From assembly GCA_947072565.1 (NCBI GenBank), contig CAMTIM010000082.1, forward strand, positions 1 through 64,000: a stretch of 64,000 nt of DNA, read 5' to 3'. Of the stretch, positions 16,997 to 29,749 are shown piece by piece. Both the position numbers and the translations under genes were made by a program. The DNA comes from an uncultured Peptostreptococcaceae bacterium. Its GTDB lineage: Bacteria; Bacillota; Clostridia; Peptostreptococcales; Peptostreptococcaceae. The stretch's first letter is position 1. Each line of letters begins with the position of its first letter. The notes beneath the pieces are model-generated. The model did not search any database. It had not been told where the DNA came from and saw nothing but the letters and a program-made list of their open reading frames with translations.

Positions 16997-18466
16997 ATGA
17001 AATTTTTTTTAACCGCATTTGGAGCAAGAAAAAATAAGGAAGGTATATATTTAGTTTCAGACAATTGGGATGACTTTGGATTTAACACACTATACAAGAT
17101 GTACTATGTTGATTCTCAATCAGATGAAATAGAGATAGGTTATATTAGGATTGGACAAAAAAAATTAGAGTATGGAAGGCCAGATTTAGAACATGAATTT
17201 GATAGCTTGAGTAAAGATTATTTTTCTCTAGGTAACGATATAGAGTACTATAAAAATATAAAAAAATTAGGTAGAGAAAAACGTGAGTATATACTATCAG
17301 CACTAAATGATATCGCTTATTCAGATATAGCTTATCAAATTGCAGAAGAAGAAGATGTTACTAAGAAATCTTTAATGAGGGATACTAATATAAAAGTAGT
17401 AAAAAGTCAATTTAAAAGAGTAGCAGAAGGTGGAGCTATACTAACTCCATATGATTTTTCCTATAAAATGAAAAATTCTAAGAGTGACAAAAATATATTA
17501 GAATTTTCAGTAAAACCAAACTCCTTACCCCCAACTAATATTCATGCAATAATAGGGAGTAATGGAACAGGAAAGACAACTACCTTAAAATCTATACTAA
17601 ATGAATATATTAGTGGAAGCAATAGTCTAAATGTTGAATTTTCAAATGCTATATTTGTATCTTTTAGTTTATTTGACCAAAGCAATGAACTATTTAAAAA
17701 TATCAATAGCGAAGATATTAGATTTTCTTATATAGGTTCCTGTAAGGTTGATGGTAGTAATAAGTCTCATGCTGAAATTAGAGATGAATTTAGTAGTTCT
17801 ATAGACACATTAATAAGAAATAAAAAATTAGATACTTTTTATGATGCTTTAGGTAAATTAGATGGCGATAATAATTTATCTGATTATGGGATTAAAACAA
17901 TTGTATATAAATTTATAAATAGTAGTCAATCAAAAGATAGAGCTACAGTTTTTAAGGCAAAATTATTAAAAATATTCTCACACTGCAGCTCTGGTCACCA
18001 AATAACGCTTTTAACATTGGTAAGATTAGTTGAACTTATAGTTGAAAAAACTTTAATTATTATAGATGAGCCAGAAACACACTTACATCCGCCTTTATTA
18101 TCCGCGTTTATTAGAAGTATATCTGACTTAGTTATTTATACTAATGCAGTTGCATTAATGGCAACACATTCTCCTGTAGTATTGCAAGAAATACCTAAGA
18201 GTTGTATATCAGTTTTAAGGAAAAGTGGTGAATATACGAGTATATTTAGACCCAAAATAGAAACTTTTGGAGAAAATGTAGGAGTATTAACAGAGGAAAT
18301 ATTCGGATTAGAAATAAAGAATACAGGGTTTTATACATTACTGAAAGAAAGAACAAAATGCTATAAAGAAAAAGATTATGATTATGAAGATATACTGGAT
18401 GCTTTTAATAATGAACTTAGCATTGAGGCTAAATCTATTATTAGAGTGTATTTAAATGAGTTATAA
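16997..18466 (+). CDS. Septu-like (PtuA-like) ABC-type ATPase
   Basis: A defence-type ATPase of 489 residues. Residues 1-170 form an N-terminal extension without a recognised domain. The SMC/ABC-like core has Walker A GSNGTGKT (187-194), a signature-like SSGHQ near 330, Walker B LIIIDEPETHLHP (Asp357/Glu358) and H-loop ATHSP (His391). The next gene is an HNH nuclease, the PtuA/PtuB arrangement of Septu and of the effector pair in Ec78-type retrons. No reverse transcriptase is nearby. It is larger than, and only distantly like, the second PtuA in this island. Confidence 0.75.
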   Translation: MKFFLTAFGARKNKEGIYLVSDNWDDFGFNTLYKMYYVDSQSDEIEIGYIRIGQKKLEYGRPDLEHEFDSLSKDYFSLGNDIEYYKNIKKLGREKREYILSALNDIAYSDIAYQIAEEEDVTKKSLMRDTNIKVVKSQFKRVAEGGAILTPYDFSYKMKNSKSDKNILEFSVKPNSLPPTNIHAIIGSNGTGKTTTLKSILNEYISGSNSLNVEFSNAIFVSFSLFDQSNELFKNINSEDIRFSYIGSCKVDGSNKSHAEIRDEFSSSIDTLIRNKKLDTFYDALGKLDGDNNLSDYGIKTIVYKFINSSQSKDRATVFKAKLLKIFSHCSSGHQITLLTLVRLVELIVEKTLIIIDEPETHLHPPLLSAFIRSISDLVIYTNAVALMATHSPVVLQEIPKSCISVLRKSGEYTSIFRPKIETFGENVGVLTEEIFGLEIKNTGFYTLLKERTKCYKEKDYDYEDILDAFNNELSIEAKSIIRVYLNEL

Positions 18467-18472
18467 TTTAAA

Positions 18473-18480
18473 GGGGGGGG
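18473..18480 (+). promoter_or_regulatory. G8 tract in ribosome binding site of HNH gene
   Basis: Eight consecutive G residues followed by AGA make up the ribosome site of the HNH gene, about 10 bases before its TTG start. A G run this long is unusual in such AT-rich DNA and could change length by slippage. Confidence 0.5.
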
Positions 18481-18490
18481 AGATTAATAC

Positions 18491-19399
18491 TTGGATAAAT
18501 TGACTAAACCATCAAAATCAATAAAAGATTTTTATATAGATTTAATTAAAAGTAAAAGGAATAATAAGAAAAATAATTTTTTAAAAGATCGCCTTACAGG
18601 TGTTAAAGATTTATTAGTATTAGAGGAAAAAAAGTATATTGAATCCGCTACAAATAGCACTTTATTTACGTTTAGAGAACATTCAATTATAGAAATTAAT
18701 GGAACCAGTGAAGTAGTTATAAAGGATGAAATGGAATCTTTATATGAGCAAGATTTTGTAAGTAGTCCATATTCTGGAAAAGTAGGCCGCGAAATTTATG
18801 ATTATTTAAAGTCCCTTGCTTTAGATGAAACATGCCCTTATTGCTCTGTAACAAAAGTTAACACGATAGATCATTATCTTCCTAAATCTAAATTTCCTAA
18901 ATTTGCAGTTGCTCCTGTAAACTTAGTTCCTTGTTGTAGAGACTGCAATTCGGCTAAAGGAGATAAATTTACAGGTTTACAGTCAAGGATGTTTATACAT
19001 CCATATTTTGAAGATATAGGGAACTTTATATGGTTAAAATGTACTGTTGTAGAAGAATCTTGGCCAATAAATTTTAGATATGAAATAGAAGTTTTTGATG
19101 ATAGTAATGAAATATTATATCAAAGGATTTGTAATCAACATAATATGTTAGATTTATACAATATACTCAGCAATAAAGCAAATAGATCATTCAGATATCG
19201 TATAAAGAGTATAATTAATAATTACAAAGTTGGAGGAATAAACTTGGTTAAAGAATATTTACAAGAAGCAGAGGAATCTTGTAAATATATTGATTTAAAT
19301 TCGTGGGAAGCTTGTATGTATAATGCATTATTAAACTCAACATGGTTCCTAACAGAAGCTATTGGAATGATTGAAGAAAAGTATCACCTAAATATATAA
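18491..19399 (+). CDS. Septu-like (PtuB-like) HNH nuclease
   Basis: A probable DNA nuclease effector of 302 residues paired with the ATPase upstream. The HNH/zinc core is in the middle: CPYC (115-118), then TIDHYLPKSKFP with the HNH His128, NLVPCCRDCN (144-153) and KGDKF. This Cys-x2-Cys/His/Cys-x2-Cys layout matches PtuB and related HNH nucleases. The flanking 110-residue N-terminal and 140-residue C-terminal regions are unrecognised and make it longer than classic PtuB. Translation starts at TTG behind a G8AGA ribosome site, 24 bases after the ATPase stop. Confidence 0.75.
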   Translation: MDKLTKPSKSIKDFYIDLIKSKRNNKKNNFLKDRLTGVKDLLVLEEKKYIESATNSTLFTFREHSIIEINGTSEVVIKDEMESLYEQDFVSSPYSGKVGREIYDYLKSLALDETCPYCSVTKVNTIDHYLPKSKFPKFAVAPVNLVPCCRDCNSAKGDKFTGLQSRMFIHPYFEDIGNFIWLKCTVVEESWPINFRYEIEVFDDSNEILYQRICNQHNMLDLYNILSNKANRSFRYRIKSIINNYKVGGINLVKEYLQEAEESCKYIDLNSWEACMYNALLNSTWFLTEAIGMIEEKYHLNI

Positions 19400-19509: not shown

Positions 19510-20839
19510 ATGAATACAGGATCATCAACTTTCTTTGATGTAAAGTGTAACTATGTACAAGATGAAAATTTAATAATCGTTATACCCAAGAATGATAACG
19601 ACATTAAGGAATTAAATAAAAACATACTAAAAAAAAATTTACTTTTAGAATATCAAGAATTTATATATAAGAAATCATATTTATTTGTTAAAGAAGTTAA
19701 GCATAGAACAGATAATAGCATAGGCCTTAATATTAAATATCAAGCGAATTTATTATCAAATGATAGATTTGATAGTTTTACTATTCAAGGTGATGAAATA
19801 GATGTATTTTTTAGTCCAATTGATTATTACTTTAATTGTAAGAAGGATAGCCAATATGTTGTTAGAGATTTATTATATAGTAAAGATATAATAGATACAT
19901 TTAAGTTTACATATTACAAAAAAAGATATTTACATTGATTTATATTTCGGAGACATACTATCAAAAGGAATTAGTAGTGATTTAATAATACATCCTAAAT
20001 TAGAAGTACGATTTGAACCAACTAACGATATTGAATTTGTATACGAAATTTATAATATTATTAAAAAATTTCTGAGATTTATATGTTATAAATCTGAACT
20101 AAATTTAATGCCGATAGATATATATATAAATGATGGTAAAAAATCTAAAATAGGAAGTTTATTTGAAAAAGAATATAAAGTTAAATACTATAGTAAAACA
20201 AGCGATATTAACTATACTAATTTTAAGCCTCATATAAATAAGATACTTCAATTAATTGCTGAGGACAAAGACTTACATTTAAGGCATTTACCCAGATATG
20301 AAAATGAATTATTTTATTATGATGTTCATCGATATTTATCTTGCTTTGCTGCTTTTGAGTATGAATGCACTTCTAAGCCAAAATTATTTAATCAAACAGA
20401 GGATGAGACGGTTGAGAATATTAGAATAGATATTTTAGATAGAATAGATAATATAGATAAAAAAATTTTAAATGGAGCTGAAAAGAGTTTTTTGAATCAA
20501 TCAAAAGACAGAATTTCCCAGTTAGGAACGCAATTTGGACAAGTGAAAAAGATAACTAATGCGTATTATAAAATGGAGAATATATTTTGTAACACACCAT
20601 ATTTAATTTATGGTAATAAAGATGTAAAGGCTATAGCTAAAGAACTAACAACTTTAAGAGTTAAAATAGCTCATAATAATTACTATGAAGAATTAACTAG
20701 TGATCAGATAGAAAATATAAGATTTTTAGAAATATTAGCATACAGTATGCTTTTAAAAAGAGCAGAAATAGATGATAGTGGAATAGAGTTGATAATAGGA
20801 TCTGTTTTTAAGTGTAATTATTTGTACACAGGATTATAA
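19510..20839 (+). pseudogene. Frameshifted HEPN-domain (ApeA-like) gene
   Basis: Two frames join into one protein of about 443 residues if one base is removed near an A7 run at 19918-19924. Frame 1 reads to FKFTYYKK and the second frame continues DIYIDLYFGDIL without a gap. The C-terminal part contains LRVKIAHNN, the R-x4-H motif of HEPN ribonucleases. The N-terminal beta-rich part with IDVFFSP is consistent with ApeA-type anti-phage proteins, though this assignment is tentative. GGGGAGG precedes the ATG. The break could be a true mutation, a phase-variable switch or a sequencing error. Confidence 0.6.
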
Positions 20840-21028: not shown

Positions 21029-21405
21029 TGTACCCTTTGTCAAGGACGTTTAAAAAAAAGAACTAGCTAGTAATAAGATGGTTTCTGTATTTAACAGGAG
21101 TCATCTTATTTAAATTCCATTGATATCTATAGTTATTATAATAATTCATATAATTATCTATTTCTGCCCTAACATCATGTATACTATAACAATTCTTAAA
21201 ATTAACTTCATCTTTAAAGTGACCATAGAAAGACTCCTGCAGAGCATTATTCCAACAGTTTGTACGTCTATACATAGATTGACCTAAACCTAATTTTTTC
21301 ACCTGTTTCTGAAAAGGAGGACTTGTATAGTGTGACCCTTGGTCAGAGTGTATAAAAGCTCAGCTATTAAATTCATCTGTAAATAGTTTTTTGCTAAGAT
21401 AATTT
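21029..21405 (-). mobile_element. IS3-family remnant (3' end of orfB transposase)
   Basis: On the minus strand the translation reads FIHSDQGSHYTSPPF, then LGLGQSMYRRTNCWNNALQE and ESFYGHFKDE, ending YRNHLITS. These are the C-terminal blocks of an IS3/IS150-type integrase. An in-frame stop lies just before the HSDQG block and the first two thirds of the gene are missing. The sequence beginning TGTACCCTTTGTCAAGGAC at 21029 looks like the terminal repeat of the element. No second end is found, so the copy is dead. It lies between two defence operons and may mark a past insertion. Confidence 0.8.
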
Positions 21406-21846: not shown

Positions 21847-23025
21847 ATGGATAATTGTACAGTTCATTTTATTCCAGCAGAAGCTGGAGATTGCTTAGTT
21901 TTAGAATTTGGTAATAAAGACTGCATAATAATTGATGGTGGATACCAAGCTACATATAGGAATGAACTAAAGCCTTTATTAACAACGTTAAATGAAAAAG
22001 GATGTAAAGTTATTTTATTAATTGTTACACATATAGATCAAGATCATATAGAAGGAGTTGTAGAATTAATAAGAGAAAATGGAGAATCTATTAATCCACA
22101 AATTATAGAAATACAAAACATATGGTTCAATGGATTTTTTAATACATTATTTATGAGTGATATATTTATAAATCGTAGAAAGAAGATAATAGAAGAGAAA
22201 CAAAAAGAAAAGATGAGAATAGTAAAAGCAGAATTAAATATGCAAATAACTAGTGAATCAGGAAATATATCAGCTAAGGATAGTCAGAGACTTGAGGAGT
22301 TATGTGTAGAATATGGTTATGCAGTTAATAAACAGTTTTCTAATCGTACAGTAATGCGAACTTCAGAGGCTTTAGAAGAAGTAATAGATAATAGAATAAA
22401 AATAGGGGATTGTTTTTTTAGTATATTATCTCCAAATCAAATATTACTTGATAAACTAGCTAAGGAATTTAATAAAAAGATGATAAAAACGTTTGGTAAA
22501 GATTACTCATTATCTGATAGTAAAGATTTTTCTGATATATTTGAATTGCTTATGGAGCTACATTTTGATAATGAAGATTTCTCTAGCAATATATCTGCAA
22601 ATGGAAAGAATATAGAGCGGTGGTTAGATACATCTACATTAGCTAAAATGAATGATATAAATAATGCATCTATTGTATTAGAGATTAAGTATAAAAAACT
22701 AAGGTTTTTATTTACAGGAGATTCAGATAGCGATCATTGGGAATCTTATTTAAACAATAATTATGATTTGATAAAGTTCTCTCATCATGGAACTACAAAG
22801 CCAAATATAAAACTTATAGAAAAATCAAAGTGCAATCATGCATTAGTGTCTACTAATGGTAGAAGAAACCATCCTGAAAATGACTTTTTAGCACGATTAA
22901 TTTTAAATGGAAATAAGAATTTATATTTTAATTATGATATTAGACAAAAGGAGACGATATTAGAGTGCAAAGAAAAGTATAAATTTCATAGTATATTTTG
23001 CAAACGAGAAATAGAGATAAAATGA
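21847..23025 (+). CDS. Metallo-beta-lactamase-fold protein (AVAST type 1-like)
   Basis: A 392-residue MBL-fold hydrolase of the ComEC-like branch. Motif 1 is IIIDGG, motif 2 is VTHIDQDHIEG (the second His of HxHxDH is Asp, as usual in this branch), and later blocks include LRFLFTGDSD and KFSHHGTTKPN. A long charged helical insert lies around residues 100-190. It heads an operon, 8 bases before a trypsin-like/STAND gene. An MBL protein, a trypsin-like protease and a STAND NTPase are the parts of AVAST type 1 anti-phage systems. I prefer the ATG preceded by GGGTGAGG; an in-frame ATG 15 bases upstream lacks a site. Confidence 0.82.
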   Translation: MDNCTVHFIPAEAGDCLVLEFGNKDCIIIDGGYQATYRNELKPLLTTLNEKGCKVILLIVTHIDQDHIEGVVELIRENGESINPQIIEIQNIWFNGFFNTLFMSDIFINRRKKIIEEKQKEKMRIVKAELNMQITSESGNISAKDSQRLEELCVEYGYAVNKQFSNRTVMRTSEALEEVIDNRIKIGDCFFSILSPNQILLDKLAKEFNKKMIKTFGKDYSLSDSKDFSDIFELLMELHFDNEDFSSNISANGKNIERWLDTSTLAKMNDINNASIVLEIKYKKLRFLFTGDSDSDHWESYLNNNYDLIKFSHHGTTKPNIKLIEKSKCNHALVSTNGRRNHPENDFLARLILNGNKNLYFNYDIRQKETILECKEKYKFHSIFCKREIEIK

Positions 23026-23033
23026 GGTGAATT

Positions 23034-25844
23034 ATGGAAGCGTATATTGTTAGAATAAAGTCTTATGATGAGTATAATGACTGTATTGAGAATGGGACAG
23101 GCATTTTAATAGGAAATAATAAAATTTTAACTTCTTTACATACTGTATGTGGAGATAGAAATAAAGTAGTAATAAACGATAGAGATATAGATGCTAAGAT
23201 ATCAGATGAAAATGATGCTGTAGCTATTTTAGAAATAGATGAGAAGATTGAACTTGCGTATGCAGCTAATTTCACAACTGATGAAGTACTTGACAGTGAA
23301 TCTGATTGGATTGTAAACGGTTTTATAACCAATAAATTAATAAAGCACTCAATGAGTGGATGCGGAATTACTTACTCATCTACAGAGGATGTACATTGGA
23401 ATAGTTACTTAGAGCATATTACAACTGGTAAATCTAAAGATTATGCAGGTCTATCAGGTTCACCTGTAATTTGTAATAATAGAATAATTGGAATATTGCA
23501 GATGCAATCTACGAATATTAATGGAACACTTGGGGTTAGACTATCATCTGTAAGTATGTTTAGAGAATTATTAGAAGATAAGAATATTAAGACAAATGAG
23601 TATAAATCTCTGCTAAAAGAAAAATGTCTAAACTTTACAAACAGACAGATAGAAAAAAATATTAAAAGTAAAAAATATATACCTAATGTATTTGTAGAAG
23701 AAGGAAAATATAAAGAAAATATGAGGTATTTTGCAGATCCGTATCTATTTTTAAAAAAATCAATTTCAGAAGTTAAAAAAATAAATTTTGATAAATATAA
23801 TAAATTTATTTTAGATCATAATGAAAAAATAATTGATTTTGATAAGTTCGATGAAGATTTCAATGTAGAAAAATTAGAAGAAATTTATGATGATTTTTAT
23901 AAAGAAGTAACTTATGCAGAAAAAAAAATAGAAGCACTAGAAAAAGAAGCTTATACAGAAGAAAAAAGGAGCTTATCTAGTTTTTACAGTATAAAACAAA
24001 ATAATTTTAATAATTCAATAAAAAATTATCTATATTCGATAAAAGTTGATTTAAAGTATATATCTAAATATTTTATTTTATTGACAAATGAAGCGGGTCA
24101 AGGCAAAACTAATTTTCTATGTGATTTCACTACGAATTTTTTAATTAGGAAAAATTATTTTACATTATATTTTAATGCTTATGATTTTAGAGAACCTATA
24201 TTTGAACTATTGAAGAAGAAACTTCAAATCTCAGAATTATATTCATTAAAGTATATATATAAAGTATTAAACAAAGATTGGGAAAAGACAAAAAAACCAT
24301 TTTTAATAGTTATTGATGGATTAAATGAAAATATAACTTTAAATGATTTTGGCGGATACATTAAAGATTTTTTAGAAGAGTGCGATAAGTATCCTTTTTT
24401 TAAAATTATTATGACTACTAGAAATGAATTTTTAGAGGAGAGATTTTCTATAATTAATGAGGGCGATTATCAAGAAAAATATGAACATATTAATATGAAT
24501 TATAGAAGTGATGAATTTAAAGAAAGAATATTTTGGGGATACTTAGATTTCTTTAAAGTTAAAATTAAGAAGAATACACTAACTAAAAATTCGTATGAAA
24601 AATTAACAGATGATATATTACTATTAAGATTTTTTTGTGAAGTTAATGAAGGTAAAAAACAAATATATTTATATGACGTATATAAATATGATGTTTTTAA
24701 TCAATACTTGGATAAAAAAAGTTTAGAGTACCGTAACAATTTAACTTTAACCATAAAAGATAATATTTATTCTTTGCTAGACAAAATATCTTTATATATG
24801 ATTGAAAAAGAACAGTTTTTCCAGGTACCATCATCTATTTTTAATGAGAAAGAAAATAAATCATTAACAAAAATGTTACAAAATGAGGTGATACTTAAAG
24901 ATGAACAAATTATAGAGCAAGGGATGTTAAAACGTAATTGTATGGTAATAAGTTTCACGTTTGATGAATTTAGGGATTTTTGTATAACAAACTATATTCT
25001 TGCATATTTTGAAGAAGAAGAACTACTTTTATTTTGGAAAAAGATGAATAGCAATAACTTTACAATTAGAGAGGGAGTCCAAAAATATATTTTTTACTTA
25101 TCTAGAACAATGTCAACTGATAAATTATTACCAATAATAAAAGAAGTTCCAGAATATGAAGAAATGTACTGGAAGCATATTTGGGGGTTAGAAGATAAAT
25201 ATTTAACCCAAGAAGATAAAATAAAATGGAAAAATCAACTTTTGATAGAAGGAAGATATGATAAATTAATAGTTAATGATTTATTAAGTAAGTGTGATTG
25301 TGCTTATTTTAAAAACATTAATATAAGCTTACTAATGGATGTATTAGATGAAATTTCTTTTGATATAACGAAATATAACTATTTTATAGAAAAAATGTTT
25401 GATGTGTATGAGGAAAGTTATTGTTATACAAATGATAATTTGCCAAGTGTTTGGCCCTACAATTACATGCTTAAATATTTAGAAAGATGTTTGGAGGCAG
25501 AAGAAAAAATTGAAGCAAATACTTTATTGTACCGATTAACAATATATTTATTAAAGTTAAGTTATTATGATACAAAGATATTGTGGGAAACTTTATATGA
25601 AAAATACCCCAAAATTGTAATAAATATAATTTCAGGAATAAATAATCATAAGAGTAGCCAGATAAATGGAAATGTTAAAGAGATATTATTTAATCTTGTT
25701 AACTGTAGTAGAGATGATGAGTACGATGATGAAATTAATAAATTATATAGTACAAATGAATTTTGCAAAAGTGAAGAATTAAGCGAAACGGAAGTATTAA
25801 GTTTTCAAAAAAATTTAAACCTTATTTATGGAGATAAACTATGA
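23034..25844 (+). CDS. Trypsin-like protease fused to STAND NTPase
   Basis: This 936-residue protein probably senses a trigger through its STAND part and acts by proteolysis. Residues 1-190 are a trypsin-like domain with an apparently complete triad: His36 in LTSLHTVCG, Asp61 in DENDAVAIL and Ser141 in GLSGSP. A charged helical linker (about 200-330) follows. The NTPase has Walker A NEAGQGKT (352-359), Walker B FLIVIDGLNE (about 423-432) and a sensor-like IIMTTRN. The remaining 450 residues are helical, possibly the ligand-sensing part. In described AVAST type 1 systems the protease and STAND protein are, as I recall, separate; here they are one chain. Its stop overlaps the next start (ATGA). 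Confidence 0.82.
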   Translation: MEAYIVRIKSYDEYNDCIENGTGILIGNNKILTSLHTVCGDRNKVVINDRDIDAKISDENDAVAILEIDEKIELAYAANFTTDEVLDSESDWIVNGFITNKLIKHSMSGCGITYSSTEDVHWNSYLEHITTGKSKDYAGLSGSPVICNNRIIGILQMQSTNINGTLGVRLSSVSMFRELLEDKNIKTNEYKSLLKEKCLNFTNRQIEKNIKSKKYIPNVFVEEGKYKENMRYFADPYLFLKKSISEVKKINFDKYNKFILDHNEKIIDFDKFDEDFNVEKLEEIYDDFYKEVTYAEKKIEALEKEAYTEEKRSLSSFYSIKQNNFNNSIKNYLYSIKVDLKYISKYFILLTNEAGQGKTNFLCDFTTNFLIRKNYFTLYFNAYDFREPIFELLKKKLQISELYSLKYIYKVLNKDWEKTKKPFLIVIDGLNENITLNDFGGYIKDFLEECDKYPFFKIIMTTRNEFLEERFSIINEGDYQEKYEHINMNYRSDEFKERIFWGYLDFFKVKIKKNTLTKNSYEKLTDDILLLRFFCEVNEGKKQIYLYDVYKYDVFNQYLDKKSLEYRNNLTLTIKDNIYSLLDKISLYMIEKEQFFQVPSSIFNEKENKSLTKMLQNEVILKDEQIIEQGMLKRNCMVISFTFDEFRDFCITNYILAYFEEEELLLFWKKMNSNNFTIREGVQKYIFYLSRTMSTDKLLPIIKEVPEYEEMYWKHIWGLEDKYLTQEDKIKWKNQLLIEGRYDKLIVNDLLSKCDCAYFKNINISLLMDVLDEISFDITKYNYFIEKMFDVYEESYCYTNDNLPSVWPYNYMLKYLERCLEAEEKIEANTLLYRLTIYLLKLSYYDTKILWETLYEKYPKIVINIISGINNHKSSQINGNVKEILFNLVNCSRDDEYDDEINKLYSTNEFCKSEELSETEVLSFQKNLNLIYGDKL

Positions 25845-26239
25845 AAATTATTAAAATAAATGAAGAATTTTATTGTATTACGGATGAAAAATTTAATGGT
25901 ATTTTCTATGATAATATTCCAATGAAAAAGAATTCTTTCGCATTTAAATCTACTATAAAAATACTTGAAGAATTATTTAAACACTCACTAGATTTAAAAC
26001 AAGATTATCTAAAGTACTACTATCAAGAATATGATGATTTTGAAACTTATTTATACCACAAAGAGTTATTAGAATCTGATATTATTAAAAATTTGAATAT
26101 CAAAGAATGGGAAACATTATTAAAATTGCGTGTAGATTTAAGCAATTATAATACGATAACTCTTCTAGAGTACGAAGAAGGTATAGTAGATACATTAAAT
26201 CAATTTTTGGAGGGCATTAATAATGAAACTAAGGAATGA
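25841..26239 (+). CDS. Small protein of unknown function in STAND/rSAM operon
   Basis: I do not recognise this 132-residue protein. It is acidic and probably alpha-helical, rich in Tyr, Leu and Glu (LKYYYQEYDDFETYLYHKEL), with no membrane segment, signal peptide or Cys pair. Its start overlaps the STAND stop by 4 bases and its end overlaps the next gene by 17 bases, so it should be made in step with both. Possible roles are a RiPP-recognition or adaptor protein for the radical SAM enzyme, or a regulator of the STAND protein; neither is shown by the sequence. Confidence 0.7.
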   Translation: MKIIKINEEFYCITDEKFNGIFYDNIPMKKNSFAFKSTIKILEELFKHSLDLKQDYLKYYYQEYDDFETYLYHKELLESDIIKNLNIKEWETLLKLRVDLSNYNTITLLEYEEGIVDTLNQFLEGINNETKE

Positions 26240-26639
26240 TTTTGTGACAAATAGCTCATCTACTTCTTTTATTATTTCAATGAAAGATGATTTAAATAAG
26301 AATAACTTTATGAAAAATATAGGAATAGAGGGCAAAACACCCATAAATAAAATATTTGAGGATTTATTTGAGACAATAAACAAAAAGAAGTGCGAGATAG
26401 AAGAATATATTAAAAGTTATAGTAACGACTGTAAGGATATTAGACAATTTCTAAGCAATGAAGGTTTTGATGATGAAACTATTGATATTGTTGAAAAATT
26501 AGTGGATGATGGAAGAAAAGTATATTATGGAAAATTAAGTTCTGATGGATATTCTGCAGCAGAAGCCTATTTTTGTATGGAGAGCTTTGTAGTTTGTGAA
26601 GAAGATATTTATTTTGATGGACAGATAGGAGGCTGGTAA
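26223..26639 (+). CDS. NSSS-motif small protein, candidate radical SAM substrate
   Basis: This 138-residue protein opens with MKLRNDFVTNSSSTSFIIS. From memory, an N-terminal block of the form DFVTNSSSxSF recurs at the start of otherwise unrelated bacterial and phage proteins of unknown function, so it may be a recognition or modification tag. The rest is acidic and helical and ends in Gly-Gln-Ile-Gly-Gly-Trp. The gene lies directly before a radical SAM/SPASM gene; stop and start share TAATG. This makes it the best candidate substrate in the operon. That it is modified is inference. Confidence 0.72.
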   Translation: MKLRNDFVTNSSSTSFIISMKDDLNKNNFMKNIGIEGKTPINKIFEDLFETINKKKCEIEEYIKSYSNDCKDIRQFLSNEGFDDETIDIVEKLVDDGRKVYYGKLSSDGYSAAEAYFCMESFVVCEEDIYFDGQIGGW

Positions 26640-27688
26640 TGGGCAGATGCTTAATTAGGAAGTGCGTAGAAAGTAAATATATATTATGCTTTGATAAAGA
26701 TGAAGGTACTTTTATAAGAGAGGGAATGGATGGGAAATCACCTTTTTGGAATGTTAAAGGGCCAGAACTATTAGATATTTCTATCACTAATTATTGTGAA
26801 CGTGAGTGTGAATTTTGTTACAGAGCATCTAATAAGGAAGGAAAGCATATATCGTTAGATAATTATGAAAAGATTATTTCTCAAGCTAAAGATATAGGAG
26901 TATTGCAGATAGCTTTAGGAGGGGGAAATCCTAATCAACATCCTCAATTTGAAGAAATATTAAAGATAACACGTAAGTATGGTATTATTCCTTCATATAC
27001 AACAAATGGACAAGGTATGACTGATAGTGTATATCAAGCTACTAAAAATTATTGTGGAGCTATAGCAGTTAGTTTGTATGATTCATATGATGAAGTTGAA
27101 AATGTTATAGATTGTTGTAATGAATATGGTATTAAGGTAAATATTCATTTTATGCTTAATGAAAATACAATAAAAGAAGCTAGAAATTTTTTAGAAAATG
27201 AAAAAGCTATTTTAAAGAAAATTAATGCTACTGTATTTTTAAATTATAAACCTATACATACATCTAAAGAAATAAGTTTGAAGGAGTCTCCTGAAATAAT
27301 AGAATTATTAAATTTTATAAGAAATGTAAAAGAATGTAAGATTGGCTTTGACAGTTGTATGATTTCATATTTAACATTGATTGAAAAAAATATCCTACTA
27401 GAAACAATGGAGTATTGTGAAGCTGCTAGATTTTCGGCATTTATATCAGAAGACTTAATGTTGTATCCATGCTCATTTTATAATGATACTACTGTAGAAG
27501 GAATAGATTTAAGTAAACATAGGTTGCAATATGGTTGGCAAGAAGGTAACGAATTTAAAAGTATACGAGAAAAACTAATGTTACCAGGAATACAAAGTTA
27601 TCCTATTAGTAAGTGTAATAGTTGTGATTATTATGAAATATGTCATGGTGGTTGCCCAGTATTTGATATTAATATGTGCAGAGGTTAG
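26639..27688 (+). CDS. Radical SAM/SPASM peptide-modifying enzyme
   Basis: This 349-residue enzyme binds a [4Fe-4S] cluster through CERECEFC (Cys53, 57, 60) and AdoMet through LGGGNPNQHP. The C-terminus has a SPASM-type Cys cluster (SKCNSCDYYEICHGGCP, then NMC). SPASM enzymes of this kind typically modify RiPP precursors or protein side chains. It is the last gene of an operon that starts with an MBL protein and a protease-STAND fusion, and its start overlaps the stop of the NSSS-motif protein. An N-terminal segment of about 45 residues before the cluster motif could hold a peptide-recognition element but shows no clear wHTH. Confidence 0.88.
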   Translation: MGRCLIRKCVESKYILCFDKDEGTFIREGMDGKSPFWNVKGPELLDISITNYCERECEFCYRASNKEGKHISLDNYEKIISQAKDIGVLQIALGGGNPNQHPQFEEILKITRKYGIIPSYTTNGQGMTDSVYQATKNYCGAIAVSLYDSYDEVENVIDCCNEYGIKVNIHFMLNENTIKEARNFLENEKAILKKINATVFLNYKPIHTSKEISLKESPEIIELLNFIRNVKECKIGFDSCMISYLTLIEKNILLETMEYCEAARFSAFISEDLMLYPCSFYNDTTVEGIDLSKHRLQYGWQEGNEFKSIREKLMLPGIQSYPISKCNSCDYYEICHGGCPVFDINMCRG

Positions 27689-27939: not shown

Positions 27940-29175
27940 ATGTGTAGATTATTGAAATTAAAAAGTATAAAATTCAACAATCATAAGATTCTAGGAAATC
28001 TTGAAGTTGGTTTTTTTAATAAAGATAAACAAATTTTAAATACAGTAGTTATAATTGGTGAAAATGGAGCAGGTAAAACAACTTTATTAAGAAGTATATA
28101 TGAACAAATGGATTGGGATCTTAAAAAAAATCAAAAAATAGATCTCAAAATAGATATACAAGCAAGTAAAGAAGAAGTAAAACTAATAGCAGAAACTAAG
28201 TGTATGAGTAGCGAGTCAATGTGGAATGACACAAAAAACAAATTATATGTTAATGAATTTCTAGATGATGTTAAATGTGGAAATAGCCTTAGTTTTGAAG
28301 ATGAAAATAAATCAAAAGTTATTTATATGCCAACAGAAATAAATTTTAATAACTTAAATAGAGTAGATAGAACTTTTAAGTACGGATATAGTTTTTTAAA
28401 TGAAATAAATCAAAACATAGCAAGTGATTTACCATCAGCTATAGCCAATGCTATAAATACTGAGGTATTTAAAAATGAAGATTTACCACCAAAAGATAGT
28501 ATTAAAAAGATATGTAATGATATAAACTCTATATTTGAATGTATGAATATAGGTGTAAAATTTATTGGATTATCTAAAGATGAAGATACAAAACCTTTAT
28601 TCAAAGATAGTATAGGAAACGAATTTGATATAGAAGGTTTATCATCTGGAGAAAAACAATTATTCATAAGAGCATTATCTCTAAAATTTTTAAATGCTAG
28701 CAACTCTATAATACTTATAGACGAGCCTGAAATATCACTACATCCACAGTGGCAAAGAAAGATAATAAAAGTATATGAAAATATAGGACAAGACAATCAA
28801 CTAATAATAGCTACTCATTCTCCTCATGTTGTTGCAGATATAAAATCAGAGCAACTAAGAGTTATAAGAAAAGATGAAAATGGAGTAAGCATAGTTCCTA
28901 ATGAACAAATAGAAGAAACATATTTTCAAACATCTGAATCTATACTTAAATATACTATGGGCTTAGAAAATACGAGAAGTGATGAAGGGCAAGAAAAGTT
29001 TAATAAATTAAAAACTTTACTAAAACAAGATTTATATGATAATGAAGAATTTATAGATATATATAACTATCTAAAAAGTTACTTAGGTGAATTTGATAAA
29101 GATCTTATTGCTATAGATATGGAAAAAGCTAGAAGAAAAAGAAAGAAGGAAAGAGAAGATGCTAAAGGTAGATAA
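27940..29175 (+). CDS. ptuA: Septu ATPase PtuA
   Basis: This 411-residue ABC/SMC-like ATPase is the sensor or motor of a Septu defence system. Walker A is GENGAGKT (40-47), the signature LSSGEKQ is near 234-240, Walker B is IILIDEPEISLHP (Asp261/Glu262) and the H-loop is ATHSPH (His293). The length and the coupled HNH partner are classic for Septu. AAAGGA abuts the ATG chosen here, so a TTG four codons in, with 11-base spacing, is a possible alternative start. The C-terminus ends in a very basic tail, KARRKRKKEREDAKGR, and overlaps ptuB by 17 bases. Confidence 0.87.
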   Translation: MCRLLKLKSIKFNNHKILGNLEVGFFNKDKQILNTVVIIGENGAGKTTLLRSIYEQMDWDLKKNQKIDLKIDIQASKEEVKLIAETKCMSSESMWNDTKNKLYVNEFLDDVKCGNSLSFEDENKSKVIYMPTEINFNNLNRVDRTFKYGYSFLNEINQNIASDLPSAIANAINTEVFKNEDLPPKDSIKKICNDINSIFECMNIGVKFIGLSKDEDTKPLFKDSIGNEFDIEGLSSGEKQLFIRALSLKFLNASNSIILIDEPEISLHPQWQRKIIKVYENIGQDNQLIIATHSPHVVADIKSEQLRVIRKDENGVSIVPNEQIEETYFQTSESILKYTMGLENTRSDEGQEKFNKLKTLLKQDLYDNEEFIDIYNYLKSYLGEFDKDLIAIDMEKARRKRKKEREDAKGR

Positions 29176-29749
29176 GAAATCAGAGCCATCTTTTCTTACT
29201 GATTTTAAGAAAAGGAATAAGCCAAGTGCCTGGGATGATTATAATCAAGCTGATATTAAGCCAAAGTTAAAGGAGTTTATGCTTGAGAATGAACAAGATA
29301 GATACTGTCCTTATTGTGAGGTTTATATAAAAGATGATAAAAGTCATATAGAGCATATAAGACCAAAGGACATATTTCCTAAAGTATTTGATAATCATGA
29401 TAACTTAATGGCTTGTTGTATGAGTCCTAATACATGTGGAGGGTCAAAGGCAAATAAGTATGATGAGAATTTTATAAATCCCGTTATCAAAAATCCTAAA
29501 GAGTATTTAGAATATGATTTATCAAGTGGAGATATAGTTCCTATTCATAGTGAAGGAGAGTACTATGAAATGGCTATGTATACTATAGATTTACTTAATT
29601 TAAATTATAGAAAATTGAGCGATGCAAGAAGATCACTTTCAATAGAACTTAATTATCTTTATGAAGAAAGTGACTTTGATTATTATAAAGATGAATTAAA
29701 GAAATTTCCGAGTTTGATAGATTTTATAAAGGAAGATATATTTGGATAA
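29159..29749 (+). CDS. ptuB: Septu HNH nuclease PtuB
   Basis: This 196-residue HNH nuclease is the Septu effector. The zinc/HNH core is CPYC (50-53), HIEHIRPKDIFP with His66, NLMACCMSPNTCGGSKAN and FINPV. This is the family's usual layout and length. The start codon overlaps the end of ptuA, giving translational coupling. A structured repeat and terminator follow. Identity as the partner of PtuA is strong; the target (phage or plasmid DNA) is known only from other Septu systems. Confidence 0.87.
   Translation: MLKVDKKSEPSFLTDFKKRNKPSAWDDYNQADIKPKLKEFMLENEQDRYCPYCEVYIKDDKSHIEHIRPKDIFPKVFDNHDNLMACCMSPNTCGGSKANKYDENFINPVIKNPKEYLEYDLSSGDIVPIHSEGEYYEMAMYTIDLLNLNYRKLSDARRSLSIELNYLYEESDFDYYKDELKKFPSLIDFIKEDIFG

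Follow-up and report, generated by a model that had tools for sequence, protein, structure and literature searches.

The operon at positions 21847 to 27688 of a 64,000-nucleotide stretch of DNA from an uncultured Peptostreptococcaceae bacterium (the whole stretch is called the window here) belongs to a family whose conserved core is a STAND NTPase, two small proteins (s3 and s4) and a radical SAM/SPASM enzyme (rSAM), in this order; the MBL-fold protein and the trypsin-like protease encoded ahead of them are one exchangeable effector among several. On balance, we favor the interpretation that the operon encodes an NLR-like STAND immune system in which this fixed core is combined with an exchangeable N-terminal effector, and in which s4, matured by the rSAM enzyme, would act with s3 as a detachable sensor or switch. 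The initial annotation of this DNA had described AVAST type 1 with an added SPASM cassette; its functional unit is retained here, but the framing gives way to that of an rSAM-linked STAND system carrying an MBL/trypsin effector.

Checking of the ORFs confirmed one tightly coupled operon of five genes on the + strand, with gaps of 8 bases or less or overlaps, as had been annotated. The first gene (21847..23025) encodes a 392-aa MBL-fold protein, which is a predicted gated pro-nuclease effector, and is followed after a gap of 8 bp by the gene for a 936-aa protein, with its trypsin-like N-terminal domain (residues 1–200) encoded at 23034..23633 and its STAND/NACHT NTPase (approximately residues 345–660) plus a short C-terminal part of approximately 270 aa at 23634..25844. 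The genes for s3 (132 aa, 25841..26239), s4 (138 aa, 26223..26639) and rSAM (349 aa, 26639..27688) follow with overlaps of 4 bp (STAND/s3), 17 bp (s3/s4) and 1 bp (s4/rSAM). Two defense pairs on the + strand flank the operon and lie outside the system. Both had been read as Septu-like, which holds for the downstream pair (27940..29749; PtuA 1e-114 and PtuB 2e-45 in PADLOC), but the upstream pair (16997..19399) best matched the PADLOC candidate PDC-M01A/B, with PtuA second. A 243-aa ORF (20108-20839) lying after the upstream pair and ahead of the operon had no significant family match, and a 79-aa ORF on the - strand (21063-21302), also 5' of the operon, resembles a fragment from the C-terminus of an IS3-type transposase. 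An Rfam search of the window gave no match.

The MBL fold of the first gene product was borne out by matches to Pfam Lactamase_B above the cutoff and to Avs1a (7e-62), and the metal ligands are 96-100% conserved in its relatives. Its score against the Avs1a equivalog model (209 bits, with a cutoff of 420) marks it as homologous but not as an equivalog, and the alignment revealed two inserts, at about residues 100-150 and 205-270. The trypsin-like N-terminus of the second protein was matched by Pfam only below threshold (0.006), by Avs1b at 2.9e-7 over residues 19-195 (28 bits against a cutoff of 1500), and by HtrA structures in a profile search. The complete His36/Asp61/Ser141 triad that had been annotated is only partly supported: His36 and Ser141 occur without exception in the 23/23 sequences that cover the region, but only about half of these have Asp at residue 61, where the others have Asn, Ser, His, Gln, Glu or Lys. 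Since residue 61 varies, the protease may possibly use a catalytic dyad or a different third residue.

The MBL gene was found in 22 loci, every one with a trypsin-type STAND protein, and its position immediately upstream of the trypsin-STAND gene is kept in the 22 relatives. An MBL protein encoded just 5' of a trypsin domain fused to a defense enzyme has been described as a pro-nuclease that is opened by the protease (Tuck et al., 2025, PMC12799240); such pairs were named for Hachiman, AVAST, Lamassu and DRT, and the mechanism was demonstrated for Hachiman and AVAST (PMC12799240). The window has the same gene arrangement, with the trypsin domain at the N-terminus of a defense enzyme, and likewise has inserts in its MBL protein, whereas its host, the STAND-s3-s4-rSAM core, is not among the four in the main text of that study (PMC12799240). 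Because MBL and trypsin correspond to a known pair of pro-nuclease and activating protease, the window protease most likely cuts the MBL protein rather than the rSAM product. In one relative from Tissierella praeacuta (L066:9536-12474), the trypsin and STAND parts are separate overlapping ORFs of 249 and 730 aa. An optional sixth gene of approximately 313 aa lies directly 3' of rSAM in L049 (14653-15594) and 14 other trypsin-type loci, and ends in an integron cassette domain (Pfam M1E1E6-like); a search of the window for a remnant of this gene found no trace.

The STAND NTPase identity was upheld by matches to Avs2 (2e-21) and to the Avs2 structure PDB 9o4e (7e-9) and by the Walker A Lys358, which, like the AGQGKTN motif, is 100% conserved among the relatives. 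The NTPase region is nearest to Avs2, with which it aligns over approximately 400 residues (E 1e-17 to 1e-35; PDB 9o4e). However, the part after the NTPase comprises only approximately 220-270 residues in the window and SMEK types, compared to a C-terminal sensor of approximately 830 residues in Avs2 (9o4e); the window STAND, which has s3 and s4 beside it, lacks the long repeats of the Avs sensor, and, unlike in Avs2, rSAM is obligate. Features shared with Avs and bacterial NLR-like STAND proteins in general are the Walker A/B motifs, the Avs-like NTPase region and an exchangeable N-terminal effector. AVAST type 1 (Avs1a MBL, Avs1b protease and Avs1c STAND) likewise unites an MBL protein, a trypsin-like protease and a STAND NTPase, but it has a long Avs1b and a separate STAND gene, whereas the window fusion matches only the N-terminus of Avs1b, joins it to a shorter STAND nearer to Avs2, and is accompanied by s3, s4 and rSAM.

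The last gene product is a radical SAM/SPASM enzyme, as annotated: it matched Pfam Radical_SAM (6e-15) and, above the cutoff, the SPASM model TIGR04085, and C53, C57 and C60 are 100% conserved in 66 relatives, in which cysteines 240, 260, 278, 326, 329, 335, 339 and 347 are 98-100% conserved and a GGGNPNxHP motif is also kept. The closest solved relative is the radical SAM entry 5v1q, which we take to be SuiB, an enzyme that cross-links Lys and Trp. Peptide-modifying SPASM enzymes (5v1q; SynChlorMet ScmE, mycofactocin and KxxxW) have the radical SAM core and SPASM cysteines in common with it, but the GGGNPNxHP motif is distinct and no NCBIfam equivalog model passed its own cutoff. Weak PADLOC matches to pVip (viperin) were also obtained; against the viperin equivalog model, the enzyme scored 50 bits with a cutoff of 180.

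The two small proteins matched no curated model in Pfam, NCBIfam or PADLOC. They are nevertheless homologous to each other (HHalign 97.8%, E 8.8e-13), and s3 differs from s4 in that it has no tag. The s4 tag, D-F-V-T-N-S-S-S-T-S-F (residues 6-16, 26238..26270, + strand), is part of a strongly conserved protein: among 72 sequences, N10, S11, S12, T14 and G34 are invariant and S13 is 97% conserved, and C118 and the last residue, Trp138 (codon 26634..26636, + strand), are conserved as strongly as the tag, at 97% each. AF2 predicted confident folds for both s3 (pLDDT 90) and s4 (pLDDT 84); the s4 model is disordered over residues 1-9, with the tag continuing into the first strand. A PDB fold search with both models found no match at E <= 0.001, and a PDB sequence search with s4 returned chance matches only. 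In two related loci (L117 and L119), s3 is fused to the STAND C-terminus, which suggests that s3 contacts this part of the STAND protein. The tagged s4 is a candidate substrate of rSAM.

The five-gene order recurs in distant Bacillota. Among 399 genomes surveyed in the phylum, two besides its own (G152 and G343) contained a relative of the 936-aa protein, and a survey of the order with the rSAM protein added a third genome (G417). All three have the identical five-gene order, with identities of 25-53% for MBL and STAND, 33-41% for s3, 36-61% for s4 and 47-58% for rSAM. A scan with a STAND alignment over 84,980 named species then returned 79 loci, and since the scan patterns were drawn from five-gene members, these are a census of one STAND clade and not of all STAND proteins. 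Four of the 79 could not be judged (in L067, L077 and L121 the contig ends just after STAND, and in L096 STAND is truncated); the remaining 75/75 have STAND, s3, s4 and rSAM in order. Absence of the small genes and rSAM beside nearly all homologs had been named beforehand as the sign of a chance neighborhood, and their presence in every judgeable locus rules this out. The last three genes do look like a modification cassette, as annotated. The loci span 15 named phyla, one of which is represented by an archaeal bin, and include Bacillota, Pseudomonadota, Bacteroidota, Thermodesulfobacteriota, Chloroflexota, Acidobacteriota, Campylobacterota, Cyanobacteriota and Planctomycetota; the rarer phyla contribute one locus each, and some loci come from bins in which contamination is possible. 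Furthermore, the pairwise distances of the four core proteins correlate (Mantel rho 0.58-0.70, with a null maximum of approximately 0.12). A search of E. coli genomes for DNA that matches the Vibrio version was negative.

The N-terminus of the STAND protein varies across these loci. It is a nuclease-like SMEK domain in some (PADLOC Aga_REase, 3e-51), while others carry a weak CAP12 TIR-like match, a PNP_UDP_1 phosphorylase, an alpha/beta hydrolase or an NNH5 helical domain; some N-termini have membrane segments predicted by our own reading of the sequence, and some have no family assignment. Two candidate readings, a Cap4 nuclease for FSTGGGG-type N-termini and a transglutaminase for L081, had no support from Pfam, and both were left unassigned. 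On a tree of 76 rSAM proteins, the effector labels change at least 13 times, and a branch with a support of 94 has the STAND-linked enzymes together on one side. The AVAST type 1-like MBL and protease that had been annotated form the variable part, and STAND with the cassette the constant part. The same comparison bears on the annotation's model that the STAND-controlled protease cuts the rSAM-modified s4, releasing or destroying it. Protease and s4 do belong to one operon and the tag lies in the disordered N-terminus of the s4 model; however, s4 and rSAM are equally conserved with the protease-free SMEK, TIR-like, phosphorylase, hydrolase and membrane effectors, so release or destruction by the protease does not hold as a general mechanism, and the documented substrate of such proteases is MBL (PMC12799240). 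We regard cleavage of s4 as highly improbable.

The s4 tag also accompanies this rSAM subfamily outside STAND operons. When 250 genomes were compared, those with an rSAM relative (E<=1e-15) and those with the tag pattern DFVTNSSSxSF were the same 6/249 besides the window's own, an identity with a chance of approximately 3e-12 by our own arithmetic under independence of the genomes, which does not fully hold. In two further genomes with the pattern (G287 and G290), an rSAM gene also lies beside the tag, and a tagged gene adjoins rSAM in 13/13 genomes with rSAM that were drawn from the surveys of the phylum and the order. Tagged proteins outside STAND operons range from 138 to 717 residues, and in all but one the s4 profile covers only the first 17-40 residues. 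A related rSAM gene is also present in T4-like phages (Slopekvirus and Pseudotevenvirus), which encode, far from the rSAM gene and not adjacent to it, two unrelated tagged proteins starting MKIRSGFVSNSSSSSF. A search for the s4 body in phages gave no significant match, and scans of viral contigs with the window rSAM and STAND proteins found no relatives. Taken together, these results point to recognition of the tag by the rSAM subfamily, which probably also modifies it. More tentatively, we propose that NSSS may be the site of a new protein modification by one dedicated SPASM rSAM subfamily, which would license or silence the sensor of cross-phylum STAND receptors and would be used separately in T4-like phages (one rSAM and two tagged proteins) and in several operons of Bacillota.

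Further contexts of the tag were noted. The rSAM homolog of the phage loci (L126, L127, L128 and L130-L137; KP15, phi5 and GAP161) is phrog_7293, with 167 phage records matched, and in KP15 a protein with an annotated MIDAS site lies between the two tagged ones. At three loci (L022:9292-10760, L024:9294-10762 and L025:9280-10808), a tagged protein of 138-147 aa, with Cys in its C-terminus, and rSAM are encoded among apparent transporter genes that resemble iron/B12-type substrate-binding and permease genes. At six others (L023, L026, L028, L042, L043 and L044), a tagged protein of approximately 470-500 aa lies beside rSAM and away from STAND genes, together with two more conserved genes (approximately 290 and 313 aa); for the one tested, no Pfam or NCBIfam match was obtained.

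Another possibility is that s4 is a RiPP-like precursor, with the tag as leader, a modified C-terminus (Cys118...Trp138) and a released peptide acting as toxin or signal, as proposed for the FxSxx peptides of VMAP systems. In actinobacteria, these systems couple an FxSxx peptide, a radical SAM/SPASM enzyme and an AP-ATPase (Kaur et al., 2020, PMC7159879). They are the closest printed concept, with the idea in common and the parts different, and they provide a precedent for the combination of STAND with SPASM (PMC7159879); the initial annotation had known no defense system that joins STAND-controlled proteolysis to a SPASM enzyme. Both types have a linked set of STAND-class ATPase, SPASM enzyme and small substrate protein; however, FxSxx-VMAP systems have a C-terminal FxSxx, a zincin-like peptidase, an AP-ATPase clade and vWA/MoxR partners, whereas the window type has an N-terminal NSSS tag, a folded s3/s4 pair and a NACHT-like STAND. 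The C-termini of s4 end in Trp and have no FxSxx motif. The FxSxx precedent, the strong conservation of C118 and W138 and the position of 5v1q as closest solved relative of the enzyme would suit a RiPP-like s4. Nevertheless, s4 is a conserved domain with a confident fold prediction and homology to s3, and not of the classical precursor type, which is short and mostly unstructured with a variable, diverging core; the conserved gene set includes no zincin-like peptidase gene; the systems already own separate effectors; and the tagged proteins of non-STAND loci have only the N-terminus in common. This reading therefore appears unlikely to us. The tag might instead be only a docking site, with rSAM acting on the STAND protein, the effector, a nucleotide or phage material. 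The weak pVip matches and the separation of the phage tagged genes from the enzyme gene speak for such a role, but the SPASM cysteines, the peptide-modifying relatives, the viperin score far from its cutoff and the persistence of the tag where STAND is absent make it quite unlikely.

The reading that we favor, with s4 as the matured partner of s3, suggests the following sequence of events. The rSAM/SPASM enzyme would recognize the N-terminal NSSS tag of s4 and modify s4, most likely within the tag. At the short STAND C-terminus, s4 and s3 would make up a small module that replaces the long Avs sensor repeats, as suggested by the s3-STAND fusions, the s3/s4 homology, the co-variation of the core proteins and the shortness of this C-terminus. 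Infection could, more speculatively, alter this module through binding of a phage product or through halted synthesis or modification of s4, and an altered s4 would be what sets off the receptor. STAND receptors oligomerise, and from what is known of AVAST, oligomerization would activate the trypsin domain. The protease would then open the gated MBL nuclease, leading to DNA degradation, by analogy with the published pairs (PMC12799240).

The surroundings of the family suggest that a defense role for the operon is likely. The neighbors of STAND loci matched 165 PADLOC families (114 neighbors) compared to 18 for the neighbors of non-STAND tag loci (82 neighbors), counts that include overlapping models and rest on a small control. 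The system is also found on conjugative plasmids. Conjugative pAt plasmids of Agrobacterium carry SMEK-type versions close to a site-specific integrase (L125, NZ_CP011248.1; L124, NZ_CP048524.1); the existing annotation of these versions lists only a SMEK domain protein and a radical SAM protein along with hypothetical proteins. A regulatory or stress-response NTPase system residing in variable genome regions would agree with the transporter or housekeeping genes that adjoin non-STAND tag/rSAM cassettes, but we consider it very unlikely in view of the Avs-like NTPase, the swapping of classical immune effector domains, the defense neighbors, the plasmid carriage and the patchy cross-phylum spread.

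The literature search for the NSSS motif or the system found no match in a library that covers few subscription papers and preprints. With no paper found for the core and no Pfam, NCBIfam or PADLOC model for s3 and s4, a family of at least 15 named phyla has probably been missed by present defense annotation. Because the NSSS tag is shared, the pairing of enzyme and substrate can be tested directly, and with T4-like phages also carrying it, mimicry or counter-defense comes into question. The portable MBL/trypsin effector gains a new host system, and sensor maturation by radical SAM chemistry would enter bacterial innate immunity.
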